Source: Exiguobacterium antarcticum DSM 14480
GTDB lineage: Bacteria; Bacillota; Bacilli; Exiguobacteriales; Exiguobacteriaceae
DNA length: 64,000 nucleotides
NCBI RefSeq assembly: GCF_000685865.1
Contig: NZ_JMKS01000006.1
Coordinates: forward strand, 1-64,000
Direction of reading: 5' to 3'
Shown here: positions 30,661 to 54,531 of the stretch, piece after piece
How positions within the stretch are numbered: position 1 is the stretch's first letter
Layout of the letters: each line of letters starts with the position of its first letter
Position numbers and translations under genes: made by a program
The notes under the pieces: generated by a model
What the model was told of the DNA's origin: nothing
Databases searched by the model: none
Seen by the model: the letters and a program-made list of their open reading frames with translations, nothing else

Positions 30661-31083
30661 ATGACACGACCAGTCATCTATTTTCTTTGTACAGGAAACT
30701 CATGTCGGAGCCAACTTGCGGAAGGGTTTGCGAAACAGTATTTGCCGGACTGGGACGTCTATTCAGCCGGGATTGAACAACATGGCTTGAATCCGAAAGC
30801 CGTCCGGGCGATGCAGGAACAGGACATTGATATTTCCGAGCAAACGTCCGATTTGATTGATCTGGATCTCTTAAAGCGGGCAACAATCGTCGTGACGTTG
30901 TGTGGGGATGCGCGTGATAATTGTCCTGTCATTCCTCCGCATGTCCGCCAAGAACATTGGGGATTCGATGATCCGGCACGCGCGACTGGGACGGAAGCCG
31001 AACAATGGGCTGTTTTCCAACGTGTCCGTGATCAGATCGGGGAACGAATTCAACGGTTTGCCAAAGAAGACGCAAGTAACTGA
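30661..31083 (+). CDS. arsC: Thioredoxin-coupled arsenate reductase
   Basis: 140 residues. The low-molecular-weight phosphatase loop is CTGNSCRS (C10, R16), and the redox pair C81/C88 in [10 protein letters not shown] matches the thioredoxin-type ArsC of Bacillus and Staphylococcus. It reduces arsenate to arsenite in the cytoplasm. GAAGGAGG upstream. First gene of an arsC-arsR unit. Confidence 0.95.
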
Positions 31084-31103
31084 AATTGAAAGGAGGATCA
31101 TCT

Positions 31104-31418
31104 ATGATCGAGACAACGAACCGTGTCGACGAGATGAGTCAGTTCTTAAAACTGCTCAGCGATGGCACACGTCTTGAAATTTTACGACGATTGCACGTCC
31201 GGGAACATTGTGTTTGTGATTTTGTTGAGATGTTTGATATCTCACAACCCGCCGTCAGTCGCCACTTGAAACTATTACGCCAGTCGCAGATCATCCTGGA
31301 GCGGCGTGAACGGCAATGGATTCATTTTCGAATCAATCCGGATCATCCGCAGCATGACTTACTGCTGACGATTTTGAACGCAATGGAATTGCCGGCGATT
31401 CCGAACAAAAGTTGCTGA
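31104..31418 (+). CDS. arsR: ArsR-family arsenite-responsive repressor
   Basis: 104 residues. Winged helix with LLSDGTRLEILRRL and the recognition helix SQPAVSRHLKLL. The arsenite-binding motif of this repressor class is present: HCVCDF with C36 and C38. A terminal Cys (KSC) may add a ligand. AAGGAGG precedes the ATG at 31104. It should release both TTATATAA-type boxes when arsenite binds. Confidence 0.93.
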   Translation: MIETTNRVDEMSQFLKLLSDGTRLEILRRLHVREHCVCDFVEMFDISQPAVSRHLKLLRQSQIILERRERQWIHFRINPDHPQHDLLLTILNAMELPAIPNKSC

Positions 31419-31470
31419 GAGGTTATTTAGCAATGGGGGACAGTTTCCCTTGCATCCCACATAACAATAA

Positions 31471-31503
31471 GGTTATATTATATATAACGAATTGGTTATA
31501 TAA
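31471..31503. promoter_or_regulatory. Second ArsR-type operator, before arsD
   Basis: GTTATATTATATATAAC (arms GTTATAT/ATATAAC, 31472-31488) followed by GGTTATATAAA. Shares sequence with the arsC operator, suggesting that arsD-arsA-arsB have their own ArsR-controlled promoter. Confidence 0.6.
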
Positions 31504-31523
31504 AGAGAAGGAGCTGATTGAAG

Positions 31524-31883
31524 ATGAAGGAAATTGAGATTTATGATCCGGCGATGTGTTGCCCGACCGGTTTATGCGGACCTTCGATTGATCCGGAACT
31601 GACCCGGATGGCGACGGTCGTCCATGCCTTGAAACAACAGGGGTATCCGATTAAACGGTTTAATTTAGCGAATGAGCCGGCTGCGTTCGTCTTGAATTCA
31701 TTGATCAAGGAAGCGATCACGGACGGAGTCGACATTTTGCCGATCACGCTTGTGGATGGTGCAATCGTCCGTCGCCGCGGCTACTTGTCGAATGCGGAAA
31801 TCGCGGAGTTGACAGGATTAGAAGAAAAAAGTTTTGCAGTCGTTGATGGTCAAAAACCGAAAGTTCGCCTGACTCTAAAATAA
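31524..31883 (+). CDS. arsD: ArsD arsenite metallochaperone
   Basis: 119 residues. The As(III)-binding cysteines C12, C13 and C18 are present in DPAMCCPTGLCG, at the same numbering as in the well-studied E. coli plasmid ArsD, which supports the ATG at 31524. The distal Cys pairs of some ArsD proteins are absent. It delivers arsenite to ArsA, encoded 13 bases downstream. Confidence 0.94.
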   Translation: MKEIEIYDPAMCCPTGLCGPSIDPELTRMATVVHALKQQGYPIKRFNLANEPAAFVLNSLIKEAITDGVDILPITLVDGAIVRRRGYLSNAEIAELTGLEEKSFAVVDGQKPKVRLTLK

Positions 31884-31896
31884 GGACGTGACGAAG

Positions 31897-33654
31897 ATGG
31901 AACCGTTAACTCTGGAAGGCCTACAATTGACCCGTTACTTGTTTTTGACCGGAAAAGGCGGCGTCGGCAAGACGTCGACCGCATCCCTTCTCGCGATCGA
32001 ACTGGCGGACCTCGGGAAACACGTACTGCTTGTCTCGACGGATCCGGCAAGCAATCTCCAGGATGTCTTTAAGATGGAACTGACAGAAGAACCGGCTGCT
32101 GTTCCCGGGGTCGAGCACCTGTTCGTCGCAAACTTCGACCCGGAACAAGCGGCAGCGGATTATAAGGAAGCGGTCGTCGGACCGTACCGGGGGATTTTGC
32201 CGGATACGGCCGTCCGGTCGATGGAAGAACAATTGTCCGGTGCCTGTACCGTCGAAATCGCCGCCTTTGATCAATTTACCGGATTGTTGGCAGCACCTGA
32301 CGCCAAACAGACATACGATCATATCATTTTTGATACGGCACCGACGGGACATACGTTACGCTTGCTCAGTCTGCCAAATGCTTGGAACGTCTACCTCGAT
32401 GAGAACACGACCGGCACGTCTTGTCTCGGTCCGCTGGCAGGGTTGACGGAGAAGAAGTCACAGTATAAAGAAGCGACAGAGCTGCTGGCCGATCCGGCAG
32501 AGACGACCTTAATTCTGGTCGCCCGGGCGGAGTCATCCACATTGACGGAAGCAGCCCACGCCTATCAGGAACTGCGTACGCTCGGGATTCAAAATGCCCG
32601 TTTGATTGTCAACGGCATATTGCCGGTGACAACGAGTCACGATACGTATTACCAGGCCTTTTTGCATCGTCAGCAAGCAGCGCTTGCGACGTTACCGGAT
32701 GTTTTTTTACGAGAAGTCCCGTTGTTTAGTTTACCTTATGCGCCAACAAGTTTGATTGGTGTCGATCAGCTCCGCAACTGGTTGACGGTAACCGAACATC
32801 CGTTGGAATCGATGAAGCGGGAGCAAATCGACGTCCCGACGTTATCTCGTTTGATTGATCAACTGGATGCAGCTGGACCAGGTGTCATCATGACGATGGG
32901 GAAAGGCGGGGTCGGAAAAACGACGATGGCCTCGATGATTGCGATTGCTTTGACGGAACGGGGACACGACGTTGTTCTGACGACGACGGACCCGGCGGCG
33001 CACCTTGAACTGACGATTGAGACGAACGCAAACCGGCATCTTGAAATCAGCCGGATTGATCCGAAGGTTGAAATTGACCGTTATACGGACCAAGTCTACG
33101 CAGCAGCGGGTGAACTGACGGATGAAGCCCACGCGTTACTCGCAGAAGACTTAAAATCGCCTTGTACAGAAGAAATTGCCGTCTTCCGCGCCTTTGGCGA
33201 TACGGTTGCCCGGGCAAACGACCGATACGTCGTCATCGATACGGCACCGACGGGTCATACGTTATTGTTACTCGACGCGACGGAAAGTTACCATCAGGAA
33301 ATGGAACGGGCGACCGGAGATGTACCGGAAGCGGTCAAAACGTTATTGCCGCAACTGCGTGACGCCAACCGGACGCACGTCATCATCACGACACTGGCAG
33401 AAGCGACACCCGTCTTTGAAGCCGGTCGTCTCCAGGAAGATTTACGGCGTGCCGGGATTGAGCCGATGGCCTGGATTGTTAATCAATCGTTTGCCGCGAC
33501 GGCAACGCATGATCCGATTCTCGGTCATAAAGCGGAAGCGGAACGCCCTTGGTTGGAAGAAGTCGACCGATTGAGCCAACAGATGGCTGTCGTAGCCTGG
33601 CAACCCGAACCGGTTTCCGGATATCACCACCTACTCGCACTTTCGAAAGGATGA
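31897..33654 (+). CDS. arsA: ArsA arsenite-stimulated ATPase (two-halved)
   Basis: 585 residues in two homologous halves, each with a deviant Walker A: GKGGVGKTSTA near the N-terminus and GKGGVGKTTMA near residue 335. DTAPTGHTL occurs in both halves. The metalloid-site cysteines are seen in GACTVEIAAFDQF, GTSCLGPL and SPCTEEIAVF. It energises ArsB with ATP. The ATG at 31897 has AAGGA upstream. Confidence 0.95.
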   Translation: MEPLTLEGLQLTRYLFLTGKGGVGKTSTASLLAIELADLGKHVLLVSTDPASNLQDVFKMELTEEPAAVPGVEHLFVANFDPEQAAADYKEAVVGPYRGILPDTAVRSMEEQLSGACTVEIAAFDQFTGLLAAPDAKQTYDHIIFDTAPTGHTLRLLSLPNAWNVYLDENTTGTSCLGPLAGLTEKKSQYKEATELLADPAETTLILVARAESSTLTEAAHAYQELRTLGIQNARLIVNGILPVTTSHDTYYQAFLHRQQAALATLPDVFLREVPLFSLPYAPTSLIGVDQLRNWLTVTEHPLESMKREQIDVPTLSRLIDQLDAAGPGVIMTMGKGGVGKTTMASMIAIALTERGHDVVLTTTDPAAHLELTIETNANRHLEISRIDPKVEIDRYTDQVYAAAGELTDEAHALLAEDLKSPCTEEIAVFRAFGDTVARANDRYVVIDTAPTGHTLLLLDATESYHQEMERATGDVPEAVKTLLPQLRDANRTHVIITTLAEATPVFEAGRLQEDLRRAGIEPMAWIVNQSFAATATHDPILGHKAEAERPWLEEVDRLSQQMAVVAWQPEPVSGYHHLLALSKG

Positions 33655-33659
33655 ATTCT

Positions 33660-33938
33660 ATGCAAATCACACCTGAAGCAGTCACGTACCTAAAAGAACA
33701 AGTAGAACACGAACAAGAACCCGGCATTCGTCTCTATCAAGCCGGACAAGGCTGTTGCGGACCGAGCTTCGGACTTGGATTCGGTGCCGGCGAAACCGGT
33801 GATCAAGTTAAAGACTTTGACGGATTGGCACTTGCGATTGACGGGAATTTAACGGATGTCAGTCATGGCATCACGCTTGCGCTGGAAGAGACGGACCAGG
33901 GTCCGCAAATCGTCCTCCTCGGCGCATCAAATTGTTAA
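33660..33938 (+). CDS. HesB/IscA-like small protein of ars operon
   Basis: 92 residues, starting MQITPEAVTYLKEQ. The motif QGCCGPSFGLGF is the Cys version of the GUCGPS-type motif of HesB-like selenoproteins, and the protein ends GASNC. It differs from true IscA by lacking the usual spacing of three cysteines. A role in holding iron, sulfur or arsenite is possible. AAAGGATG lies before the ATG, overlapping the arsA stop. Confidence 0.75.
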   Translation: MQITPEAVTYLKEQVEHEQEPGIRLYQAGQGCCGPSFGLGFGAGETGDQVKDFDGLALAIDGNLTDVSHGITLALEETDQGPQIVLLGASNC

Positions 33939-33969
33939 ACGGAAATTCGAAATTTAATACAGAAATGAA

Positions 33970-35274
33970 GTGAACGCATTGACCGGCACACATCTACTTG
34001 CGATCGGGATTTTCCTGATCACGTTATTTTTAATCATCAAACAACCAAAAGGTCTCGGCATCGGCTACTCCGCGATGGGGATGGCACTGATTGCCTTACT
34101 GACCGGCGTTGTCAATCTGGATGATGTCTCGACAGTCTGGGGCATCATCTGGAACGCGACGTTTACCTTCATCGCCCTGATCATCATCTCCTTGATATTG
34201 GATGAGATCGGTTTCTTTGAATGGGCAGCACTCCATATGGCACGGATCGCCAAAGGCGGCGGTGTCAAACTATTTGTGTACATGACACTGCTTGGTGCCG
34301 TCGTTGCCGCCTTGTTTGCGAATGACGGGGCTGCTTTGATTCTGACGCCGATCGTCCTCGCGATGGTCCGGCATCTGAAGTTACCGGATTATGTTGTCTT
34401 GGCGTATGTCTTTGCCTCGGGCTTCATTGCCGACACGGCAAGTCTACCGTTTGTCGTCTCAAACCTTGTCAATATCGTCTCGGCCGACTTCTTTGACATC
34501 GGCTTTACGGAATACGCCTCACGGATGGTGTTCGTCAACGTCTTTTCTGTCATCGGCAGTCTGCTTGTCTTGTATCTGTACTTCCGGAAAAGTATTCCGA
34601 AGACCTATGATGTGACACAACTCGTCGCGCCGAGTGCGGCAATCAAGGATCACCGGATGTTCAAGTTATCGTGGCTGGTGCTTGTATTGCTTGTCGTCGG
34701 CTACTTTACGAGTGACCTCATCGGGATTCCGGTCAGTTTGGTTGCCGGCGTCATCGCCTTATTCTTCCTGTTAATGGCACGTCGTTCACCGAGTGTACCG
34801 ACGAAAAAAGTCATCGCCGGCGCACCATGGGCAATTGTTTTCTTCTCGCTTGGGATGTATATCGTCGTCTACGGTCTCCAAAATGCCGGATTGACGCAAG
34901 TTCTCGCCGATGTCATTGATGGTTTCGCGACGAATCTCGCGGCAGCGACGTTCGGGATGGGCTTCCTCGCCGCCATTCTGTCATCAATCATGAACAATAT
35001 GCCGACCGTCATGATTGATGCGCTGGCGATTGATCTCAGTCAAGCAACCGGAACGATTCGGGAAGCCTTGATTTATGCCAACGTCATCGGATCCGATCTT
35101 GGACCAAAAATTACACCAATCGGCAGCCTGGCGACCTTACTCTGGTTGCACGTTTTGCGCTCAAAAGGTGTCAAAATCGGTTGGGGACAATACTTTAAAA
35201 TTGGAACGATTCTAACGATTCCGACACTGACCATCACGTTACTCGGGTTATACATCAGCTTGTTACTTTATTGA
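33970..35274 (+). CDS. arsB: ArsB arsenite efflux permease
   Basis: 434 residues, about eleven to twelve hydrophobic segments. It has the ArsB/NhaD family blocks [34 protein letters not shown] and [15 protein letters not shown], and [20 protein letters not shown] near the end. It extrudes arsenite and antimonite across the membrane, with ArsA as optional ATPase. The start (GTG at 33970 or TTG at 33979) is uncertain. Confidence 0.94.
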
Positions 35275-42715: not shown

Positions 42716-44038
42716 CTGTTTCAGGGGAATGAATTGGACATATTGTTGGTATTGAATTTGGCGTTGCTTGTATTGTTGATCGTGTTGACGGCGTTTTTCG
42801 TCGGATCGGAGTTTGCGGTCGTGAAGGTTCGGATGTCACGGCTCGATCAAATGATTCAGGAAGGAAACAAGGGGGCGGTCCTGGCAAAAAAAGTCGCCAG
42901 TGACCTGGACTACTACTTGTCAGCCTGTCAGCTCGGCATTACGATCACGGCACTGGGACTTGGGGCGCTCGGGAAGCCGACCGTCGAAAAGTTGCTTGGA
43001 CCGGTCTTTGATGAGTTTGGTGTCGCAGCAGCCCTATCGACGATTCTGTCGTACACGATTGCCTTCGTGTCGGTCACATTCCTGCACGTCGTCATCGGAG
43101 AGCTCGCACCAAAGACGCTGGCGATCCAGTATGCGGAACGCATGACATTGCTCCTCGCACCAGCGCTGTATGTCTTCGGTAAAATCATGTATCCGTTTAT
43201 CTGGGTGATGAACGGTTCAGCCCGTGTCTTCCTTCGTCTGTTCGGCGTTCAGCCGGCCGGGCATGAACAAGCCCATTCAGAGGAAGAGTTGAAGATCATC
43301 ATGTCACAAAGTTTTAAGAGCGGTGAGATCAATCAGACGGAACTCGCTTTGATGCAAAACGTCTTTGCGTTTGACGAACATGTCACAAAGGATATCATGG
43401 TTCCCCGGATGAACGTGACGACGTTGTCGCTCAGCATGACATGGCCGGAAGTCTTACAAATCATGACGGACAATCAATACACGCGTTATCCGGTCATTGA
43501 GGATTTTGATAAGGATCATATCATCGGGTACGTCAACGTCAAGGAAGTCTTGACCGATCAAGCAAATGATACGCAACGCGATTTACGAAAGTATATGAAG
43601 GAGATTCCTGCCGTTTCTGAGATGACACCGCTTCAGGAAACGTTACTGAAGATGAAAGTGACGCGCTCCCATATCGCACTTGTCATCGATGAGTACGGTG
43701 GGACTGCCGGAATGATTGCTATGGAGGATTTGCTTGAAGAAATCGTCGGTGAAATTCGAGATGAATTCGACGAAGATGAACAAGCTGACATCGAGACGAT
43801 TTCGAAGACGGAATATCGTATAGCGGGAACGGTCTTATTGTCAGACCTGGAAGAACGGTTTAATCTGTCGTTTGCTGATGCGGATGAAATCGATACGATT
43901 GGTGGATTCATCCAGGCGCAAGGGACGGATTATCAAGTTGGTGAGCGACTTGCGACGGAAACGTATGACTTGGAACTGTTGCATGTCGAAAACTATCAGA
44001 TTCAGCAAGTCAAACTAGTCTTGAAACAGTTATCCTAA
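42716..44038 (+). CDS. CNNM/CorC-family protein (hemolysin C-like, YhdP/YqhB group)
   Basis: About 440 residues. DUF21 (CNNM) transmembrane domain with AFFVGSEFAVVKVRMSRLDQ, LDYYLSACQLGITITALGLGALG and HVVIGELAPKTLAIQ; two CBS domains (~residues 215-335) with MVPRMNVTTLS; a CorC/HlyC domain at the end (YRIAGTVLLSDLEERF). These proteins take part in magnesium export. No ATG lies close to a ribosome site: GGAGGTG at 42704-42710 is followed by CTG at 42716 and TTG at 42734. The frame is open upstream to 42581, so the start is uncertain. Confidence 0.85.
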   Translation: MFQGNELDILLVLNLALLVLLIVLTAFFVGSEFAVVKVRMSRLDQMIQEGNKGAVLAKKVASDLDYYLSACQLGITITALGLGALGKPTVEKLLGPVFDEFGVAAALSTILSYTIAFVSVTFLHVVIGELAPKTLAIQYAERMTLLLAPALYVFGKIMYPFIWVMNGSARVFLRLFGVQPAGHEQAHSEEELKIIMSQSFKSGEINQTELALMQNVFAFDEHVTKDIMVPRMNVTTLSLSMTWPEVLQIMTDNQYTRYPVIEDFDKDHIIGYVNVKEVLTDQANDTQRDLRKYMKEIPAVSEMTPLQETLLKMKVTRSHIALVIDEYGGTAGMIAMEDLLEEIVGEIRDEFDEDEQADIETISKTEYRIAGTVLLSDLEERFNLSFADADEIDTIGGFIQAQGTDYQVGERLATETYDLELLHVENYQIQQVKLVLKQLS

Positions 44039-44045
44039 CAAGTAA

Positions 44046-44073
44046 GCCGCCCCTTGAGTCAAGGGGCGGCTTT
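44046..44073 (+). terminator. Terminator after CNNM gene
   Basis: GCCGCCCCTTGA and TCAAGGGGCGGC arms, then TTTG. Confidence 0.85.
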
Positions 44074-44129
44074 GCATCTGAATTATGAACTGAAACTGAT
44101 GTCGTCAGTGTTGATTTGATCGGTTCTAT

Positions 44130-45478
44130 CTAAATTAGGCGAGAGTACTCCCACTTCTAAACGAAGTGAAAGTGGGAGGTGAATCGCCCCCCCCCTTTCG
44201 GGTATAATACCTTTCAAGGAGGTGAAAATCATGTTGAAGCATAAGGCCTACAAATTCAGAATCTACCCGACAAAAGAGCAGAAAATCCTCATCGCGAAGA
44301 CGATTGGTTGTTCGCGCTTCGTCTTCAACCACTTCTTGGCGAAGTGGGATGAGACGTATAAAGCGACAGGTAAAGGACTCTCTTACGGTTCTTGTTCGAA
44401 AGAAATCCCGATGCTGAAGCAGGAGTTCGACTGGCTGAAAGAAGTCGATAGCCATTCGCTTCAATCGAGCGTCAAACACCTGACCGATGCGTATGACCGC
44501 TTCTTCAAGAAGCAGAACGAACGGCCTCGCTTCAAATCGAAGCGCAATCCCGTCCAATCCTACAAGACCAATATCGAGAAGAAGAACCAACTTCCCGAAG
44601 TCTCGATTGTCCGCAACAAGTTAAAACTCCCGAAGTTGAAGTGGATCCGTTTCGCCAACTCGAGGCAGGTAGTAGGACGCATCTTGAACGCCACGATCCG
44701 ACGTAACGCTTCAGGAAAATACTTCGTCTCCCTGCTCGTCGAGCAGGAGATCAATGAAATGCCAAAGAAGGGCTCATCCGTCGGCGTCGATGTCGGGTTG
44801 AAGAACTTTGCCATCTTGTCGGACGGCACGGTGTACAAGAATGACCGTTACTTCCGAACGCTTGAGAAGAAGCTCGCACGTGAACAACGAACGTTGTCCC
44901 GTCGTCAACTCATCGCCCTGAACAAGAAAGTAAAACTTTCCGAGGCAAAGAACTATCAGAAGCAGAAGCGGAAGGTCGCCCGCATCCACGAGAAGATCGC
45001 CAACAAGCGCACTGACTTCCTGCACAAGGTGTCGACCGAGATCGTCAAAAACCACGACGTCATCGGCATCGAGACCTTGCAGGTGAAGAACATGCAGAAG
45101 AATCGCAAGTTGAGCAAGGCCATCTCGGACGTCAGCTGGTCGGAGTTCTTCCGCATGCTGGAGTACAAGGCAGACTGGTACGGGAAGACCGTCGTGAAAG
45201 TCGGCAAGACCTTTGCTTCCAGCCAACTATGCTCCAGTTGCGGACATCAACACAAAGACGTGAAACATCTTGGTTTGCGTGAATGGACATGCCCGATTTG
45301 CGGCATCCACCACGATCGTGATGTGAACGCAGGACTGAATCTCAAACAAGAAGCAGAACGCATCTTAGCTTCTTCAACCGTCGGGACGACGGGGTTAGCC
45401 TGATCAGGTTTCGACCGTTAGGTCGGATAACTCAGGAATCCTCCACCTCTAAGCAAAGCGTAGGTGGAGGTAGTTCAA
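44130..45478 (+). mobile_element. Solo tnpB element (IS200/IS605 superfamily, IS1341-like), ends approximate at left
   Basis: Left-end hairpin: CTCCCACTT (44148-44156) and its complement (44170-44178). Right-end hairpin: CCTCCACCT and AGGTGGAGG (about 45439-45470), then TAGTTCAA; TCAA is a usual right cleavage motif in this superfamily and ends at 45478. No tnpA is present, so moving needs a TnpA in trans (one is encoded at 50080-50481). The right end is exact because a kinase gene reads in frame from 45479. The left boundary is a guess, about 20 bases before the hairpin. Confidence 0.75.
44231..45403 (+). CDS. tnpB: TnpB RNA-guided nuclease (OrfB)
   Basis: 390 residues. RuvC-like catalytic acids: D in [16 protein letters not shown] in [12 protein letters not shown] in [11 protein letters not shown]. 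Zinc ribbon [11 protein letters not shown]...CPICG. N-terminal [17 protein letters not shown] is typical. Full-length for the family and apparently intact. GGAGGTG before the ATG at 44231. TnpB proteins use an RNA from the right end of the element (omega RNA) to cut DNA. Confidence 0.95.
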
Positions 45479-45494
45479 CGAGTAGACTCTTCAA
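45300..45494 (+). ncRNA. Probable omega RNA (right-end guide RNA) of the first tnpB element
   Basis: In this superfamily the guide RNA overlaps the end of tnpB and the right end, and carries as guide the first ~16 bases of the flank. Here the hairpin-rich 3' part is at about 45404-45478 and the guide would start at 45479 (CGAGTAGACTCTTCAA), which lies in the sensor-kinase remnant. The 5' limit is approximate. Confidence 0.5.
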
Positions 45495-45634
45495 GAAATC
45501 GTGAAACGGGTGGTACAGGTCTTGGATTAGCCATTACGAAAGAAATAGTCGAGGCCCATAATGGGAGTATTTCCGCTGTTAATGTGGAAAACGGACTAAA
45601 GGTTGTCATCGATTTAAGGAGGATTCCGGTATGA
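45479..45634 (+). pseudogene. Sensor histidine kinase, C-terminal remnant
   Basis: Starting exactly at the right edge of the tnpB element, 51 codons encode the ATP-binding end of a kinase: [20 protein letters not shown] (G2 box), then [11 protein letters not shown] and a beta-strand tail. The stop overlaps the response regulator start (ATGA), as in a normal kinase-regulator pair. The rest of the kinase, including His box and sensor, is missing left of the element. Confidence 0.9.
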
Positions 45635-46305
45635 AAACAATCGCGCTGGTGGATGATGAAAAACGAATGCTAGAATTGATCGAACTTTATCTCCAACCAA
45701 CCTATAATTGCATCAAACTTAACAGTGGAAAAGACGTATTGGATTTGATTGAAACAGACGAACCAGAACTGATCATATTAGATGTCATGATGCCCGTAAT
45801 GGACGGATTTGAGACATGTCGGAAGATCCGCGAGGTCTCGAATGTACCGATCATCCTGTTGACGGCTCTCCATGGAAAAGAAAAAATCGTAAAAGGATTA
45901 CGCCTTGGTGCAGACGATTATATTGTTAAACCATTTGATGAGGAAGAGTTACAAGCTAGAATTCAATCCATTTTTAGGCGGACATCTGCAGAAATCGATA
46001 ACAAAATTGAGTGTTCCGGTTTGGTTTGGGATGAATTATCTCATGAATTATCTTATATTGGTCGTCAAGTGAAAGTCACACCGAAGGAATTTTCTCTACT
46101 GGGTAAACTATTAAAAAATCCTGGTAGAGTGTATTCAAGAGAGGAGTTGCTCGCAAGTTTATGGTCGGCCAGTGAATGGACGGATGAGCGAACGGTAGAT
46201 TCTCATGTTCGAAACTTAAGGGAAAAACTTAGAAAAATTGGTTTTCCGATTGAGAAACACCTCCAGACAGTTTGGGGAATCGGCTACAAATGGACTTCAT
46301 ACTAA
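45631..46305 (+). CDS. OmpR/PhoB-family response regulator (orphaned)
   Basis: 224 residues. Receiver domain: acidic pocket VDDE near residue 8, phospho-Asp in [13 protein letters not shown], Lys in [13 protein letters not shown]. Winged-helix output domain with [26 protein letters not shown] and [25 protein letters not shown] upstream. AT-rich like the rest of the copper island. Its kinase partner is destroyed, so phosphorylation would need a different donor. It likely controls the copper genes. Confidence 0.92.
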
Positions 46306-46336
46306 AAAAAGCGGAGGCATGTGCCCACGCTTTTTT
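46304..46336. terminator. Terminator after first response regulator
   Basis: AAAAAAGCG...CGCTTTTTT stem with an inner GGCA-TGCC stem; also faces the convergent ydhK gene. Confidence 0.8.
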
Positions 46337-46350
46337 AGTTTCTAAAAGTG

Positions 46351-46923
46351 TCATTCAGCGGTTAGTTCGTCTTCTGTGACCCATTTATGATTGGTCACCT
46401 GTTTACCCGACGTCGATTCAAAATCAATCATATAAACAGTCGTCTCTTTGGCTGAATCAATCGTTGCGGTAGCCTCTTGCATGCCCTTCATATGATCCGC
46501 ACTTACTTTGACTTCATCCCCAACATTATAAGGTGTTGACTTCGCTTCTACAATTTCCTCTTGGATGATCCATTTATGGTCTGTCACACGTTTTCCACCG
46601 TTTGTTGGATCATAAGAAATACTGTATGCCGTTGTATCGTATGCTCCTACGATGGTTGCTTCGGCGTCTTTCATCCCTTCCATATGGGCCTCTTTAATCA
46701 TCGCCATGTCTCCAACTTTGAACTTTGGATCTTTAGCATCGTTTAACCCTTTTGGAACTTCTTTAGAACCGGACATATCCATTGTTGAATGGTCCATGCC
46801 ATCCATATTTTTATCCATGTTACTATTCGACTTAGTATCGTCCCCACTGCTTCCGCATGCTGCGAGTGCTAAAGAGAGAGAAGCCACCATCGTTGTCGTT
46901 AAGAGCTTTTTGTTGAATTTCAT
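46351..46923 (-). CDS. ydhK: YdhK-family (DUF1541) lipoprotein
   Basis: 190 residues. Signal peptide with lipobox LALAAC, a Met/His/Asp-rich linker (DKNMDGMDHSTMDMSG) that could bind copper, then two DUF1541 repeats, each ending HKWxxxEE (DHKWIIQEEIVEA and NHKWVTEDELTAE). YdhK-like proteins often occur near copper genes. Cell-surface lipoprotein. AGGAGGCG-like site upstream (GGAGGCG). Confidence 0.9.
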   Translation of the reverse strand: MKFNKKLLTTTMVASLSLALAACGSSGDDTKSNSNMDKNMDGMDHSTMDMSGSKEVPKGLNDAKDPKFKVGDMAMIKEAHMEGMKDAEATIVGAYDTTAYSISYDPTNGGKRVTDHKWIIQEEIVEAKSTPYNVGDEVKVSADHMKGMQEATATIDSAKETTVYMIDFESTSGKQVTNHKWVTEDELTAE

Positions 46924-46977
46924 AAAGTATCGCCTCCGGTAATGTTGTAGTGTTTGGTATACACTGTAACATTAAAA

Positions 46978-46996
46978 TTTGCAGAAACTTTGCAGA
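46978..46996. promoter_or_regulatory. Direct repeat, candidate response-regulator box
   Basis: TTTGCAGA at 46978-46985 and again at 46989-46996, 11 bases apart (about one DNA turn), located in the divergent region between ydhK and the multicopper oxidase. OmpR-family regulators bind such head-to-tail repeats. Confidence 0.5.
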
Positions 46997-47143
46997 CGGT
47001 CATAAAAAAGCACATTCGAAAAATCTTTTTGTCTCATTTAATCATCATCCGCTTAACACATCATGCCATTCTGTAAAAACCACATTTTTTTCACAATCAT
47101 CCTTTACAGTGAAGCTAATATCAAACAGGAAGGAATGAGTGTT

Positions 47144-48673
47144 ATGAAAGGAAAATGGATTATCGTAATCGGAAGTGTGCTGGCATTATTGTTGATTGGC
47201 AGTATAGGTTCCTTCTTTTTTCTATCACGCATAGGTGTGGGAAATCTGAATCAGGGGGGCATGGGCTCCATGATGAATTCTTCAAATGAATCTTCAAGCG
47301 ATACCATGATGGGCATGGAAAACGGCGGAATGGGGCATGCTACGAATATAAAGTTGAAGAATTCTACTGAAAAGGAGAATCCTTTAGGTTTGCCTAAAGT
47401 ATTAAAACCCGATCAAGAGGATAAAGAGTCGATGCGTTACACGGTCGTCGCTCGAGAGGGAACAACACGCTTTTTTGCAAACGGTGATCAAACAAATACG
47501 TTAGGATACAACGGAAATTATTTAGGTCCTATGATTGAATTGAAAAAAGGAAAAACTGTCAGCATACGCACGATAAATCAACTTGGTGAGCCAACTACGT
47601 TTCATTGGCATGGGCTCGTCGTACCCTCACAAGTAGAAGGTGGTCCCCATCAAATCGTGAACCCTGGTGAGTCAAAAGACGTAACCTTTAAAGTAGAACA
47701 GAATGAATCGACACTTTGGTTTCATCCCCATCCAATGGGAAAAACAGCCAGTCAAGTGTATAAAGGATTGGCAGGATTGTTATATGTAAAAGAGGTCAAT
47801 CTAAAAACCAATCTTCCTCAAAAATATGGTAAAAATGATATCCCCTTAATTTTACAGGATCGACAGTTTAATAAAGAGAATAGCATGAATTATGATGATA
47901 TTGAAAAATCGGATGGGGCTTTAGGTGATACGTTGGTCGTGAATGGCACACTCAATCCGTATTTTGACGTAAAGTACTCTCAAATAAGAGTGAGACTGTT
48001 AAACGGATCTAATGCGCGTAACTATGTAGTGAAGTTATCAGATGGTGCAAGCTTCGAAAAAATAGCAGGTGATGGCGGTTATCTTTCCAAGCCTGAAAAA
48101 GTTCGGTCGGTTGCGCTAAGCCCAGGTGAGAGAACTGAGATTCTACTTGATTTTTCAAAACATTCAATAGGAGAACAGGTATCCCTGATAACAGATGGAG
48201 TAACGATTACCAAGTTTAAACTAAAAGAAAAGCAAGGCCGAAATTCGGAGATAACCAATGTCATTCAAAAGATGCCAAAACTGAATGATGCGGATTTAAA
48301 ACCTGATCGTAGACTAACGCTTTTCGGAATGGGGAAAATGGTTGAGATAAATGGAAAAACATTTGATGAAAATCGAATTGATATTAAGGTAAAACAAAAT
48401 CGGACGGAGACATGGGAAATATACAACAAAAAAGATATGATGGGTGGAATGATTCACCCATTTCATATACATGGGGTCCAGTTTGTTGTATTAGAACGAA
48501 ATGGTGTGCAAACCAATAGTCAAGAGAGAGGACTTAAAGACACTGTAGCTGTTAAACCGGGAGAACGAGTTAAAATTCGAATGACATTCAAGCAAAAAGG
48601 AGTGTTCATGTATCATTGTCATATACTTGAACATGAGGAAAATGGAATGATGGGACAATTAAAAGTAGATTAA
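47144..48673 (+). CDS. Multicopper oxidase (CueO/CopA-like)
   Basis: 509 residues. N-terminal membrane helix/signal (about 3-28), a Met-rich stretch (MGSMM, DTMMGMENGGMGH), three cupredoxin domains and the four copper motifs: HWHG, WFHPHP, HPFHIHGVQF and YHCHILEHEENGMM. The last holds the type 1 Cu site with an axial Met. It likely oxidises Cu(I) on the outer face. The ATG at 47144 has AGGAAGGA 9 bases upstream; another ATG is too close to it. Confidence 0.93.
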   Translation: MKGKWIIVIGSVLALLLIGSIGSFFFLSRIGVGNLNQGGMGSMMNSSNESSSDTMMGMENGGMGHATNIKLKNSTEKENPLGLPKVLKPDQEDKESMRYTVVAREGTTRFFANGDQTNTLGYNGNYLGPMIELKKGKTVSIRTINQLGEPTTFHWHGLVVPSQVEGGPHQIVNPGESKDVTFKVEQNESTLWFHPHPMGKTASQVYKGLAGLLYVKEVNLKTNLPQKYGKNDIPLILQDRQFNKENSMNYDDIEKSDGALGDTLVVNGTLNPYFDVKYSQIRVRLLNGSNARNYVVKLSDGASFEKIAGDGGYLSKPEKVRSVALSPGERTEILLDFSKHSIGEQVSLITDGVTITKFKLKEKQGRNSEITNVIQKMPKLNDADLKPDRRLTLFGMGKMVEINGKTFDENRIDIKVKQNRTETWEIYNKKDMMGGMIHPFHIHGVQFVVLERNGVQTNSQERGLKDTVAVKPGERVKIRMTFKQKGVFMYHCHILEHEENGMMGQLKVD

Positions 48674-48849
48674 TGGAGGAAGAAATTAAAGATGTCTGAA
48701 GTGACACTTGCTAACTTTCATCTTTTTTTCACAAATGGGGGAAATAACTCTTGTGTATCAAAATAAGTAAGATGGATAAATGGAGGGAATTGCGATGGCC
48801 CATGAAAACAATGAAATCATTAAAGCCTTACAAAAATGCATAATAACAT

Positions 48850-49010
48850 TTGACACTCCCACGGCTAAAGCCGCAAGCTCCCCCTTCGGGATGAGTGGGA
48901 TTCTGAAGTGCTTATGCGAGCGCAGTCCATTTCTGTTTTGCTCAAGCCTTCAGATGAGGGGGTGCCATCACCCCTCCTGAGACAGACCCTAAAGGTTCTC
49001 AGGCTGATTG
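48850..49010 (-). ncRNA. Probable omega RNA of the second tnpB
   Basis: The stretch between the tnpB stop and the right end is rich in hairpins, as expected for the guide RNA. The flank beyond 48850 (reading ATGTTATTATGCATTT on the minus strand) would be the guide, which matches the interrupted copper protein gene. Limits are approximate. Confidence 0.45.
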
Positions 49011-50075
49011 ACTATTACCATCAACCACAGGTGCGTATCTAATATTCATCGCACCGACTAAATCTCTGTGCTTTTTGAATCCACATGGACAAAAATAGGT
49101 TCGATCTTTCGCTTTGTTTCTTTTACCGCAAGAAGGGCATGTCTGAGATGTATAGGCCGGATTGACATACTCGACCTTGATTCCGTCCAGACTTGCTTTG
49201 TATTCAATGAATGTTGCTAGGCGATAGAACGACCATGTATGCAGATTCTTATTGTTTTTACGGCTTGTTCTTGCCGTCTGCCGGATGTTCGCCAGTCTTT
49301 CTAGGCGAATGACAGAAACGTTATTCTCTTTCGCAAATGAAACGATCGCACGACTTACCTTGTGATCTTTGTCTCTCATCCAGCGTTGCTCTTGATTATT
49401 TAGTTTCTTGATTGCGTTCAGCTTCTTCTTTTGACCGAGCTCTTTCCGTCTCGTACGAAACTTGCGTTTCATGTATTTGTTCTCGCGTCCGTTCCCGAAG
49501 AACCTCGCCTTGTCGCCATCATTCGTTGCGACTGCCGGGACTTTCAAACCCAGATCCACACCGAGAACCTTGGAGCCGGTCTTCTCGGTCGTGAGAAGCG
49601 TGACAGCGATCTGGGCAATCCATTTGTTCGACTTCTTCGTGATGCGTAGCGTTCCCAACTTATTATTCAGGAGTGAGAAATTGCGATTGTGTTTATCGAC
49701 CATTTCTGCTTTGATTGCCATCTTCTTTGCTTTACCGTCCATCATGATCGGGAGAGAAATCGACTCGAAATCGAACGAATAGTTCTGGTTGTTCCATGTG
49801 CAGTAGGGTTTCTTGAGAATAGGGATGATTTTGAATTTGGATTTCTTGACTTTCTTGAAGAGGCTTTGGGCGTCTTTGATGACTTGGTTCTTGACGGCGC
49901 TAGGCAAATGAGACTGGACATTCTTGCTCGTCAGCTTAAGCATCGTTTCTGCCTCTACCATATCTGAGACAAGTTGGTTGGCCGTGTGGATATAAGTTCC
50001 CATCATACGCTTCAAAATAGATTGTTGTACTTTGGTAGGACGAAGTTTGATGTTCACCGTTAATGTCTGATTCAA
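48999..50075 (-). CDS. tnpB: TnpB RNA-guided nuclease (OrfB)
   Basis: 358 residues. RuvC acids: D in VLGVDLGLKVPAV, E in IRLERLANIRQ, D in KHRDLVGAMNI; zinc ribbon CPSCGKRNKA...CPCG. Apparently intact. The TTG start at 50075 lies 8 bases after GGGGGTG; the open frame runs further upstream. It differs clearly from the first TnpB in the window. Confidence 0.94.
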   Translation of the reverse strand: MNQTLTVNIKLRPTKVQQSILKRMMGTYIHTANQLVSDMVEAETMLKLTSKNVQSHLPSAVKNQVIKDAQSLFKKVKKSKFKIIPILKKPYCTWNNQNYSFDFESISLPIMMDGKAKKMAIKAEMVDKHNRNFSLLNNKLGTLRITKKSNKWIAQIAVTLLTTEKTGSKVLGVDLGLKVPAVATNDGDKARFFGNGRENKYMKRKFRTRRKELGQKKKLNAIKKLNNQEQRWMRDKDHKVSRAIVSFAKENNVSVIRLERLANIRQTARTSRKNNKNLHTWSFYRLATFIEYKASLDGIKVEYVNPAYTSQTCPSCGKRNKAKDRTYFCPCGFKKHRDLVGAMNIRYAPVVDGNSQSA

Positions 50076-50079
50076 GGTG

Positions 50080-50481
50080 TCACCCCCTTGTTTTTTGTTG
50101 CTCGACATAACGCTTGATTGTTTCGCTCGACACATTTCCGGCGGTCGAAACGAAGTAGGAACGCGTCCAAAGACTTGGCAAGTGTTGAAGATGAGGAAAT
50201 TCCGCTCTTAATTTTTTAGATGTCACGCCTTTGATTTTTGCCATAATATCAGCAGGACTGAGTGTTGGTGGGGCATTGAGGAACAGATGTGTATGATCTT
50301 GATCGCATTCTAAGGCGATTGTATTGATTTCTAAGCTTTCACATATCTCATGCACCAATTCTTTGAAACGTCCTTCTACATCGTTTCGACGGAATATTTT
50401 CCTTCTATATCGAGGGCAAAAAACGAAATGATAATTGATCAGAGAAACGGTGGTCTGGGTTCTTCGATAGTTGTTTTTCAT
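50080..50481 (-). CDS. tnpA: TnpA single-strand transposase (Y1/HUH, IS200 type)
   Basis: 133 residues. HUH motif in CDQDHTHLFLN, catalytic Tyr in SSETIKRYVEQQ, N-terminal YHFVFCPRYRRKIF. It transposes single-stranded DNA using the end hairpins. No clear ribosome site before its ATG (TTGTAAAT precedes it), so expression should be low. Its stop lies 5 bases before the tnpB start. Confidence 0.94.
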   Translation of the reverse strand: MKNNYRRTQTTVSLINYHFVFCPRYRRKIFRRNDVEGRFKELVHEICESLEINTIALECDQDHTHLFLNAPPTLSPADIMAKIKGVTSKKLRAEFPHLQHLPSLWTRSYFVSTAGNVSSETIKRYVEQQKTRG

Positions 50482-50932
50482 ATTTACAATGTATCATTTC
50501 AAATAACTTACTGCAACGCAAAAAAAGATTTTCGGATACATGAAGTGCCAGAACCTTCGGCTTCTTTGTGGGCACTCCGTATCCGACCGAGCTTTCATCC
50601 CACCCCTAAAGGAGTGGGCTTTCCCGCTCAAAAATTCTGTAATGAATGCTTTGACGCCTGTTTAAAGGAGTCTCATGTATCTTCGATGACAGACTGTATA
50701 CGATTGAATCGAGATTGTGCAGATATCTGCAGCTTACTGGTACAAGCTATTTCTCGAAATAGTAATCAACTTAGTGCTCTCGCTAAAAGTTGCGTAGAAA
50801 TTTGTAGGAAATGTGCGGATGAGTGTTCAAAACATGATCATGAACACTGCCAAAGATGTGCAAAAGCATGTACAGAATGTGTAAGTAAATGTCAAAAAAT
50901 TCTTGCGTAGACGATTAGAAAGATAGAAAACC

Positions 50933-50977
50933 TGCCTATACCAATCAAAAGAATATGATTAGTGTAGGCATTTTTTT
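50933..50977. terminator. Terminator after copper-storage gene
   Basis: TGCCTATACC/TGTAGGCA arms with inner AATCA/TGATT pairing, then seven T's. Confidence 0.75.
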
Positions 50978-50999
50978 CTATTCAAAAGGGAAGTTTGAC

Positions 51000-51101
51000 T
51001 TAAAGATGAAAAAATTCATAGGCTCGATATACTAACATTACTGAGAATGAAAAAAGTGATACATATAAAATGACGAGCAAAATTTTTGAAAGAAGGTTCA
51101 T
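51000..51101 (-). CDS. Small single-pass membrane protein (33 aa) in copper island
   Basis: Reads MNLLSKILLVILYVSLFSFS then VMLVYRAYEFFHL. GGAG lies 9 bases upstream. One long hydrophobic helix, then Tyr/Arg/His-containing tail. It is antisense to its neighbours, between the copper-storage gene and the second regulator. Function unknown; it might modulate the copper ATPase. Confidence 0.55.
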   Translation of the reverse strand: MNLLSKILLVILYVSLFSFSVMLVYRAYEFFHL

Positions 51102-51202
51102 GGTTTCAACTCCATTTCTAATCGTTTAAGTCAATGATAAAAAGAAAATGTGAAATTTTTTTGAAAAAATTTTATATTTTGAATTGAGAGGAGGGCTAGA
51201 AA

Positions 51203-51880
51203 ATGAATAGAATTTTAATTGTTGATGACGAGATCAGAATGAGACAACTCTTAAAGCTTTACCTAGAACCGGTTGGCTATGACTGTAGTACAGCGCATGA
51301 TGGCATCGAGGCGCTTGAGAAGGTGAAGAAAGAATCATTTGATCTCATTCTACTTGATGTCATGATGCCCTTGTACGATGGTTTTGAGGTATGTAAAAAA
51401 ATAACGGATGCCCATCCAGATATTCCAATCATCATGATCACTGCTTTAGACGATGCTGAATCCATCGTAAAGGGATTAGACGCGGGAGCGACAGATTATG
51501 TTTCGAAGCCTTTTAATGGAGAGGTGTTATTAGCGAGAGTCCGTTCGGTCATGCGGCGAAAGCCGAAGGAACATGTCATGTATGAAGGGTTGGTACTGGA
51601 TGAAAACAACGATTTCATTTTACTCGATGGGAATGTGATTGATTTTACTCCTAAAGCCCATGCGTTGTTGCGACTATTTCTCCAACATCCAGGACGGTTA
51701 TTTAATCGATTAGAACTTTATGACTTTGTCTGGTCCTATACTTCAGAATCGGATCCGCGAACGGTAGATTCTCATATTAAGATGATTCGAGAAAAGTTGA
51801 GAGATTTAAATTATCCAATCGATCGTCATCTGAAAACCATTTGGGGACGTGGATATCGATGGGTTGAAGGAGAGGAATGA
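51203..51880 (+). CDS. OmpR/PhoB-family response regulator (second)
   Basis: 225 residues. Receiver: VDDEIRMRQ, phospho-Asp in LILLDVMMPLYDG, Lys in YVSKPFNGEVL. Output winged helix: FTPKAHALLRLFLQHPGRLFNRLELYDFVW and DPRTVDSHIKMIREKLRD. GAGAGGAGG before the ATG. It is only ~45% identical-looking to the first regulator of the island. Its stop overlaps a start codon (ATGA) that opens a broken reading frame. Confidence 0.92.
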   Translation: MNRILIVDDEIRMRQLLKLYLEPVGYDCSTAHDGIEALEKVKKESFDLILLDVMMPLYDGFEVCKKITDAHPDIPIIMITALDDAESIVKGLDAGATDYVSKPFNGEVLLARVRSVMRRKPKEHVMYEGLVLDENNDFILLDGNVIDFTPKAHALLRLFLQHPGRLFNRLELYDFVWSYTSESDPRTVDSHIKMIREKLRDLNYPIDRHLKTIWGRGYRWVEGEE

Positions 51881-51960
51881 AAAAAAATTCTCCAAGAATA
51901 AAACGATGCTTCACAGAATCTTGTTAGATATTTTGTATGTCTTTTGGTTGATTGTCTAAA
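51877..51960 (+). pseudogene. Possible N-terminal remnant of a second sensor kinase
   Basis: An ATG overlapping the regulator's stop has GAAGGAGAGG upstream and encodes MKKNSPRIK before a short run to a stop. In the next frame comes MLHRILLDILYVFWLIV, a typical first transmembrane helix, also followed by a stop. One added base would join the two. A kinase is normally encoded here. No ATPase or His-box sequence follows, so most of it would be deleted. Confidence 0.35.
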
Positions 51961-52025
51961 AAGGTAGTAAGCGTTAGGCAGGATTCTGTTTCTTCTCTAT
52001 ACACTAGCTACAGGGAGGGTTCTTC

Positions 52026-54029
52026 ATGGAACATAATCAGCATCATGATAATGAAAATACTACGTATTCCTCTCATCATGAACATGCAGGGCATGAAGGG
52101 ATGATTGAAGATTTTAAAAAACGATTTTTTGTATCGTTAGGTTTAACGATTCCAATTTTGCTATTGTCAAAAATGATTCAAGAATGGTCCGGTCTAAGCA
52201 TTAATTTTCTATACGATGACTTTGTGTTACTTACATTGTCTACGATAGTCTATTTTTATGGAGGGTGGCCTTTTTTAAAAGGTAGTTTGGATGAGCTTCG
52301 CAACAAAAATCCTGGCATGATGATGTTGATTGCTTTGGCAATCAGTGTTGCCTATTTTTACAGTGTTGCAATCGTACTCGGATTTGGAGAAGGACATGAT
52401 TTCTTTTGGGAACTGGCGACACTTATCGATATTATGTTACTAGGACATTGGATTGAAATGAAGTCAATCATGGGTGCTTCCAATGCCTTACAAGAACTTG
52501 TGAAGCTACTCCCCAGTATCGCGCATCGTATCAATAAAGATGAGGTAGAAGATATTCCTGTATCCGAACTAAATACGGGAGATACGATTCTCATCAAGCC
52601 AGGCGAACAAGTCCCCGTAGATGGAAAGATAATAAAGGGGACGACGACGATCGATGAATCGATGTTGACAGGCGAATCGTTACCGATCGAAAAGCAAAAA
52701 GGTGACATGGTGATTGCTGGTTCTATCAACCAAGAAGGAAGTGTGACAGTCGAAACCAATGATACTGGTGAAGGTACTTACCTTTCAAAGGTGATTGATT
52801 TAGTCAGTGAAGCACAGGAATCAAAATCAAAAACACAAAATTTAGCAAATCGTGCAGCAAAAATGCTCTTCTACGTTGCAGTTGGTGCAGGCATTCTGAC
52901 GTTCATTATCTGGTTAGCACTAGGGTACTCAGTCAGTACCGCAATTGAGCGGATGGTGACGGTCATGGTTATCTCATGTCCTCATGCATTAGGATTGGCA
53001 GCGCCTCTCGTCGTTTCTGTGTCTACTGCGATATCGGCTAAGCGAGGATTGTTAATTCGAAACCGTACGCAGTTTGAGGAGGCACGTCGTTTGGATGCGA
53101 TTATTTTCGATAAGACCGGAACTTTAACGCAGGGAAACTTCGGGGTCACAGATATCATCCCTGTCCAGGATTCCTCTCAGAATGAATTACTAGGACTTGC
53201 TGCAGCTGTAGAGCAATCATCGCAACACCCTCTCGCACAAGGGATACTTGCAAAGGCAAATGAACTTGATCTCTCTTTTCCAACAGTTGAAAATTTTAGT
53301 TCTATGACAGGAGTAGGATTGAAAGGAGAAGTGAATGGACTGTCGGTTCGTGTTGTGAGTCCTCGATATGTTCGTCAAGAAAAACTAGCAATCGATGAAG
53401 AAACATTTGAGAAGTTGTCCGAGGAAGGGAAGACTGTCATTTTTGTCTTGAAGAATGAACGTTTATCAGGAATGATTGCATTAGCTGACTTGGTTCGAGA
53501 AGAAGCCAAGGATACAGTCACTGAGTTGAAAAATAGAGGCATCCGCTCCATCATGCTCACGGGTGATAATGAAAAAGTGGCACAGTGGGTCGCTAAACAG
53601 CTTGGTATTGATGAAGTCTATGCTGAAGTATTACCTGATGATAAATCGAGACAAGTAAAAACTATCCAGGCCGAAGGAAGAAAAGTAGGTATGGTAGGAG
53701 ATGGCATTAACGATGCACCAGCCCTTGCACAAGCTGATGTAGGTATAGCAATCGGAAGCGGTACTGATGTAGCAGTAGAGACAGCAGATATCGTCCTCGT
53801 CAGAAGTAATCCAAATGATGTACTCTCTATTCTGGATCTCTCGCGAAATACGTATAATAAAATGATTCAAAATTTATGGTGGGCTGCTGGATACAATATT
53901 ATTACGATTCCGCTCGCAGCAGGTGTGTTAGCTTCTTATGGTATCATTCTGTCTCCGGCAATCGGAGCGGTACTGATGAGCTTGAGTACGATTATTGTCG
54001 CTGTGAATGCTAGGATGCTCAAGATATAG
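52026..54029 (+). CDS. copB: CopB-type copper-translocating P-type ATPase
   Basis: 667 residues. N-terminus His-rich (HNQHHDNENTTYSSHHEHAGHEG) without CxxC domains. The membrane metal motif is CPH (C318-P319-H320, VISCPHALGLAAP), typical of the CopB class rather than CopA's CPC. Phosphorylation D362 in DKTGTLTQG, TGES in the actuator, MLTGDNEKVA and VGDGINDAPAL. It likely exports copper (or silver). GGGAGGG before the ATG. Complete for its class. Confidence 0.95.
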   Translation: MEHNQHHDNENTTYSSHHEHAGHEGMIEDFKKRFFVSLGLTIPILLLSKMIQEWSGLSINFLYDDFVLLTLSTIVYFYGGWPFLKGSLDELRNKNPGMMMLIALAISVAYFYSVAIVLGFGEGHDFFWELATLIDIMLLGHWIEMKSIMGASNALQELVKLLPSIAHRINKDEVEDIPVSELNTGDTILIKPGEQVPVDGKIIKGTTTIDESMLTGESLPIEKQKGDMVIAGSINQEGSVTVETNDTGEGTYLSKVIDLVSEAQESKSKTQNLANRAAKMLFYVAVGAGILTFIIWLALGYSVSTAIERMVTVMVISCPHALGLAAPLVVSVSTAISAKRGLLIRNRTQFEEARRLDAIIFDKTGTLTQGNFGVTDIIPVQDSSQNELLGLAAAVEQSSQHPLAQGILAKANELDLSFPTVENFSSMTGVGLKGEVNGLSVRVVSPRYVRQEKLAIDEETFEKLSEEGKTVIFVLKNERLSGMIALADLVREEAKDTVTELKNRGIRSIMLTGDNEKVAQWVAKQLGIDEVYAEVLPDDKSRQVKTIQAEGRKVGMVGDGINDAPALAQADVGIAIGSGTDVAVETADIVLVRSNPNDVLSILDLSRNTYNKMIQNLWWAAGYNIITIPLAAGVLASYGIILSPAIGAVLMSLSTIIVAVNARMLKI

Positions 54030-54171
54030 TTTGCAATTTGATTAAAAAAGAAGCAAAAAGTGAAATGCGCCTTTCAAGTGTCTACTGTTTGGATGGAAGA
54101 AATCGTATTGTAAGATACGGTGAACTACTGTCTGTTAACTCAACTAAGTGTTATTCTGAATAATTAAAATT

Positions 54172-54202
54172 AACGGTCTCTCATTCAAGGGACCGTTTTT
54201 TT
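54172..54202. terminator. Terminator
   Basis: ACGGTC and GACCGT arms plus T-run, at the right edge of the copper island. Confidence 0.65.
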
Positions 54203-54204
54203 GC

Positions 54205-54531
54205 GTAATCATGTAATTATTCCGCCCACCATAAGGCATCTTCCAGTTTTTCGCGATGGCGTGCAATTCTTTTTCTGTCGAGACGGTTGGATGAGAACCT
54301 TTTAAGGCCTTGCTCGATGTATTCTTGAAGAAGAACGTGACGAAGCTGATCACGCTGACCGCTGTCAGGGAATAAGCCGGTGCGAGCGGTTTTTGTGTCG
54401 CTGAGTTTCCCGAAGAAGGAAGCGAACGGAATCATGATGACCATCACACCGGCGAACAAGATCGTACTGATTGATCTGACGACGTTTGACGACGAATTGT
54501 CGGTCAAGTCAGCGACACAGGCGGGAATGAA
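54205..54531 (-). pseudogene. Decayed permease fragment
   Basis: On the minus strand one frame shows VRSISTILFAGVMVIMIPFA with FFGKLSD, and the next frame continues as QKPLAPAYSLTAVSVISFVT then FFFKN. Both look like membrane segments of one transporter (MFS- or GPH-like), joined by a frameshift near 54395. No start or remaining segments are found. GC is like the host, not the island, so this marks the right junction. Confidence 0.5.

Follow-up and report, generated by a model that had tools for sequence, protein, structure and literature searches.

An IS608-Type Element Splits a Predicted Copper-Storage Gene of Exiguobacterium antarcticum at a Site That Is Empty in a Close Relative

Results

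A Gene of 108 Codons Is Divided by a Complete Element

The window analyzed here (64,000 nucleotides of Exiguobacterium antarcticum DSM 14480, from the start of contig NZ_JMKS01000006.1) holds one reading frame of 108 codons in two pieces (48795–50910), and between them lies a complete IS608-type element of the IS200/IS605 family, 1789 bp long (48850–50638). Comparative evidence supports the interrupted gene as csp3 (DUF326), related to the cytosolic copper-storage protein Csp3. We are highly confident that an IS608-type insertion split csp3, that the element could leave precisely, and that its TnpB would be expected to favor the occupied allele. The element lies on the minus strand within csp, so that its left end has the higher coordinate, and its terminal tetranucleotides TTAC (50642–50639) and TCAA (48853–48850) are both read on that strand. 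The features of the locus are as follows.

47063–48673, plus strand: multicopper oxidase, upstream of csp, which provides the syntenic context
48795–48849, plus strand: 5′ piece of csp3, codons 1–18 and the first base of codon 19, aligned to the intact allele of Exiguobacterium sp. KRL4 (L037:1444–1498)
48830–48849, minus strand: putative TnpB guide in host sequence, about 16–20 nt 3′ of TCAA and antisense to csp codons 12–19, placed by the ISDra2 reRNA layout given in PMC8612924
48850–50638, minus strand: complete IS608-type element, left end at 50638 and right end at 48850, with tnpA and tnpB matches and a second copy with identical ends
48850–48853, minus strand: TCAA, right cleavage site (CR), the final four bases of the element
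48850–49000, minus strand: right end and presumed omega/reRNA scaffold of about 150 nt, from its position 3′ of tnpB; boundaries drawn after those of ISDra2
48900–48903, minus strand: GAAT, the guide of the right end (GR), located 5′ of the hairpin region there, as the IS608 GR given in PMC5934647
48999–50135, minus strand: tnpB, encoding an RNA-guided nuclease of the TnpB type with at most 378 aa
50080–50481, minus strand: tnpA, 133 aa, Y1/HUH transposase
50599–50618, minus strand: left-end hairpin, stem of 8 bp and loop of 4 nt
50619–50622, minus strand: AAAG, the guide of the left end (GL), immediately 5′ of the hairpin there, as the IS608 GL given in PMC5934647
50639–50642, minus strand: TTAC, target and left cleavage site (CL); on the plus strand it lies within the Cys19–Asn20 codons of csp
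50639–50910, plus strand: 3′ piece of csp3, coding to 50907 and with its stop codon to 50910

The boundaries of the insertion were fixed from both sides. A second complete copy in the same genome (G000:C3:1168648–1170436) matches the csp copy from first base to last (99.78%; 4 of 1789 positions differ), and this confirms the ends of the element independently of the csp gene. When the csp flanks were joined and compared with KRL4 (G007), 744 of 763 positions were identical; the gap positions, four in all, were confined to the csp leader, and the join itself was gap-free, which confirms it independently of the element. The KRL4 allele encodes an intact protein of 108 aa and gave a 100% match to NZ_MOLV01000031.1. 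The site of the C3 copy is likewise empty in KRL4 (800 bp joined, 99.4% identical, gap-free). Since both sites have an empty allele, the boundaries and the absence of a target-site duplication are shown for both copies, with the empty site exactly restored in KRL4 at each. No instance of the empty-site pattern was found in viral contigs. A preliminary description of this DNA, made from the sequence alone, had placed an insert at 48850–50638 in a gene of 108 codons, and the second copy and the KRL4 allele show that placement to be exact to the base. It had suggested a search for an empty site in relatives, which KRL4 provides, and had named two findings that would count against it: related strains lacking the flanking homology, and a junction matching no intact homologue. 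Both were checked, and neither was found.

The element is repeated in the genome, and repeats commonly cause misjoins; a repeat copy could have been misplaced into csp during assembly. The probability of such an artefact is close to nil. Each copy has flanks of its own, four private differences set the csp copy apart, both joins fit exact target-site logic, and the 244 kb contig runs on both sides of the element, collinear with KRL4.

The Element Has the Proteins and End Signals of IS608

NCBIfam names the tnpA product an IS200/IS605 family transposase and that of tnpB an RNA-guided endonuclease of the TnpB family; both are full-length open frames. TnpA matched PF01797 (E 7.6e-39) and NF033573, and among solved structures it matched the ISHp608 transposase (2a6m, E 6.7e-26). 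In the alignment to 2ec2, a His-x-His motif and a C-terminal Tyr of TnpA are aligned, and we take these to be the catalytic residues. TnpB fits the profile of its family, which has RuvC-type motifs and a zinc ribbon: it matched NF040570 (202.5 bits, cut-off 100) and PF07282 (82.6 bits, cut-off 26.3; E 2.2e-23), and PF01385 was slightly below its cut-off (30.3 bits against 30.5). Its structure matches were Cas12f/TnpB chains, and the Cas12f alignment covers GVDLG and Glu stretches that are presumably RuvC-type motifs. The length given for TnpB assumes the listed ATG start, and the true start may be downstream.

TTAC before the left end and TCAA closing the right end were present in all ten copies with both ends aligned, as was AAAG at the same left-end offset. 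GAAT lies 54–55 from the right end in nine of the ten; the exception is G015, where a later GAAT arises through a base change and the rightmost-match search measured a different position. The set comprises five close copies and five at about 72% identity. Two copies of 81–82% identity with only the right end fully aligned (L060 and L061) were excluded from the count, as were partial matches; the right ends of these two are also TCAA. All four motifs are signals printed for IS608 (PMC5934647). The element shares with IS608 (ISHp608 of Helicobacter pylori) the TTAC target, the TCAA right end, the AAAG and GAAT guides, the left-end hairpin, a Y1 TnpA, the lack of target duplication, and the order tnpA then tnpB. 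It differs in its host, and the kinship of its TnpA to 2a6m is at the level of the E value given above. The preliminary description had recognized an IS608-like element with the TTAC/TCAA pair. That identification was upheld, with the tetranucleotides read on the minus strand, and the two guides, absent from it, can be added.

Like the ISDra2 TnpB/reRNA (OMEGA) system, the element combines a protein of the TnpB family with a right end that lies 3′ of tnpB and adjoins the host flank; unlike ISDra2, its predicted TAM is TTAC instead of TTGAT. A search for catalogued guide RNAs gave no Rfam match at E values up to 1 across 43500–54500. A single-sequence fold of the right end had a z score of −1.53, and structure alone carries no evidential weight here.

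Some match to the element was found in 11 of the 19 genus genomes searched (its own included). Close full copies are present in KRL4 (two, 98%) and in G009 (one, 97%), and further species carry relatives of 72–82% identity. Two records of the plasmid collection (73–74% identical) matched nearly the whole element, stopping no more than a few bases from its ends, and had no match to csp. We also noted short elements of about 400 bp, two in the E. antarcticum genome (G000:C3:1639639–1640059 and 755330–755719) and others at L084–L087, that by eye have left-end-like hairpins and TCAA ends. Over a stretch of 137–138 bp they share 84–95% identity with the part of the csp element presumed to give the guide RNA, and are likely to be nonautonomous relatives with their own guides.

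The Interrupted Gene Resembles csp3

The 3′ piece of the gene matched PF03860 (E 1.6e-10). The intact KRL4 protein, a Cys-rich sequence of the four-helix-bundle type, aligned with Csp3 of Bacillus subtilis (5fig, E 1.4e-24) ungapped over 100 residues, of which 48 are identical. Each of its 16 cysteines is matched by a cysteine in Csp3, and the aligned stretch of Csp3 holds three extra ones (positions 8, 12, and 67). The two pieces in the window jointly hold 16 cysteine codons, and no difference from KRL4 alters a cysteine. On the KRL4 allele, the NCBIfam model of Csp1 type (TIGR04401) scored 56.6 bits, below its cut-off of 100. The earlier assignment to the Csp/DUF326 family is borne out by these matches. 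B. subtilis Csp3 binds many Cu(I) ions and protects against copper (PMC5171941). At E ≤ 0.001, the search of the E. antarcticum genome gave no other DUF326 gene and the remnant was the sole match; a relative of the 3′ piece occurs in 16 of the 19 genus genomes (its own included). Read from its own start, the csp frame meets a stop at the 62nd codon, inside the element, so the original protein of 108 aa cannot come from that start. We infer that copper storage has been lost, though perhaps not completely.

Among the best 80 of 414 relatives found, Cys19 is present in all 80, a count that is partly by construction because one search pattern covered this motif, and GTAA, which is TTAC on the other strand, is present in 45. 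The motif of the Csp family itself often supplies the TTAC target; we do not claim a preference.

The insertion might have swapped the N terminus of Csp rather than abolished the protein, if translation started in the element and left it in frame through the left end into csp. The last plus-strand base of the element, T, restores Cys19, and 15 of the 16 cysteines are left. The outward frame is open before the junction for 102 codons in four of the ten copies, for 48 in one, and for 42 in five. In-frame starts are found at 50350, 50428, 50545, 50566, and 50614; GAGGG lies 11 nt upstream of the start at 50428 (read by eye), and there is a promoter-like match upstream of the starts (50220–50247, plus strand). 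However, promoter-like matches do not exceed chance, with 3 found where 5.1 were expected. Between the promoter-like match and the starts stands a terminator-like match (50300–50321, plus strand), of a kind also found about as often as expected (2 against 2.1). Part of helix 1 would be gone, and the codon changes described below hint at relaxed constraint. We regard a swapped N terminus as highly unlikely and favor the disruption of csp3 by the insertion.

The Insertion Is Probably Younger Than the Split from KRL4

In each of five further loci that were fetched (L089–L093), csp is uninterrupted beside the multicopper oxidase; these five amount effectively to two distinct csp sequences, as four of them differ mutually by only 0–1 of 324 bases. 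The consistent lack of the insert makes the empty state the likelier ancestral one. The opposite polarity, an ancestral insertion with KRL4 as the precisely excised state, would fit a family that excises precisely (PMC5934647) and a KRL4 genome that holds two other copies of the element. Besides the insert-free loci, it has against it that only 4 differences separate the two copies of the E. antarcticum genome, whereas 27–34 separate them from the KRL4 copies, and we give it very little credence.

Identity to KRL4 in the flanks of the element is 97.7% over 3375 bp on one side and 98.6% over 414 bp on the other, a difference of 1.4%–2.3%. If the empty state is ancestral, the insertion would thus be younger than the split from KRL4. 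It does not appear to be brand new, because at all four positions at which the csp and C3 copies differ, the C3 copy, the two KRL4 copies, and the G009 copy agree and the csp copy is the odd one out. The statement that the gene was "lost recently" in the preliminary description is accordingly sound in relative terms, given the insert-free KRL4 flanks and the four differences between the copies. The private substitutions (48881, 48914, 48961, and 49035) all lie within the final 186 bp, which cover the end of tnpB and the presumed guide-RNA region. The chance of such clustering is (186/1789)^4, or about 1e-4, by hand arithmetic on a pattern that was spotted post hoc. The changes might weaken the guide RNA. 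No gene conversion donor carrying all four was seen when the alignments were inspected by eye.

The csp pieces differ from KRL4 by four amino-acid-changing and two silent codon differences. Three neighboring genes differ by 13 changing and 31 silent in total (oxidase, 3 and 7; response regulator, 8 and 19; DUF1541 gene, 2 and 5). The contrast is not significant (one-sided Fisher p = 0.093). Two of the four changes in csp were polarized to the E. antarcticum lineage, none to KRL4, and two had no polarity call. We consider this pattern suggestive of relaxed constraint on csp.

Discussion

Proposed Mechanism of Insertion and the Expected Role of TnpB

We propose that an IS608-type element carrying tnpA and tnpB transposed in single-stranded form into a TTAC that lies on the antisense strand of csp3. 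This TTAC is the complement of the Cys19–Asn20 codons, TGT-AAT; the insertion divides csp3 between the first and second bases of codon 19, and no target duplication was made. The element could also excise precisely, because TTAC and TCAA, the two guides, and a TnpA of full length are all retained. Excision and insertion in the IS608 group proceed by way of single-stranded circles. In the IS200/IS605 family, excision is described as resealing the donor exactly (PMC5934647).

The second protein complicates this prospect. In ISDra2, TnpB works with an RNA from the right end whose last ∼16 nt are flank sequence, and it cuts the donor joint beside the TAM, and this cutting has been proposed to favor repair from a copy that still carries the element (PMC8612924). 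A plasmid gene-drive effect of such elements has been reported (PMC11870625). By analogy, the guide RNA of the csp element would run past TCAA and end in the csp sequence next to it, and the TAM would likely be TTAC. TnpB would then be expected to cut an excised or never-invaded csp allele and so favor the occupied one. It would probably be guided to the TTAC-flanked site that excision leaves, and precise reversion may be opposed. Since TnpB should oppose reversion, the possible reversibility that had been attached to the disruption needs qualifying. The preliminary description was otherwise right in what it observed and essentially right in how it interpreted it.

The site in KRL4 has TTAC and a single mismatch (position 11) among the 25 bases compared. 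In a stronger version of the proposal, the occupied csp is a self-favoring null allele: TnpB is guided to the csp sequence that the element interrupted, and the element cuts intact csp genes and copies itself into them. We think this rather unlikely. If it were true, the intact csp targets would be excised alleles or alleles from near relatives such as KRL4, and the system would act on a copper-storage gene as a natural homing drive.

Within a limited literature search, we found no prior report of IS200 together with copper in Exiguobacterium, or of a DUF326 or copper-storage gene disrupted by an insertion sequence. The event itself is ordinary, another example of a well-known kind, and the useful additions are the exact empty alleles and the consideration of TnpB. 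Two closely related Exiguobacterium species offer a clean occupied/empty pair, with full-length TnpA and TnpB. The pair could serve as a natural test bed for whether TnpB holds an IS608-type element in an otherwise revertible gene, and for whether loss of Csp3 alters copper handling.

The Surrounding Copper Cluster

The copper cluster in the window has decayed further, to judge from its comparison with KRL4: the sensor kinase is lost. In KRL4, a histidine kinase (L082:3489–4904; HisKA and HATPase_c) precedes the response regulator, and the kinase is also kept in L090. Homology of the window to the KRL4 cluster begins at 45479, which corresponds to the 3′ end of the kinase. Most of the kinase, and a gene of 457 aa that is present in KRL4 and has no confident Pfam match, are replaced by a tnpB-only segment (44115–45478) that encodes a TnpB of 393 aa (NF038281, 578.8 bits). 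The response regulator at 45631 is thus left without the kinase found in KRL4.

At the end of the KRL4 contig, just downstream of csp, L082:8528–8754 is a 93% inverted match to window positions 45252–45478, and a similar tnpB-type segment may border the KRL4 copper cluster on the other side. In another species (G016), a different insertion interrupts the multicopper oxidase of the same cluster (L089:5342–6952). The frames of this insertion encode 231 aa (HTH_Tnp_1) and 240 aa (rve integrase core and HTH_21), and we assume it to be an IS3-type element. Elsewhere in the window, 30661–35274 contains an arsenic-type cluster with an ArsR-family HTH protein, an ArsA ATPase, and an ArsB pump by Pfam, together with a possible ArsC, a protein of the low-molecular-weight phosphatase family.
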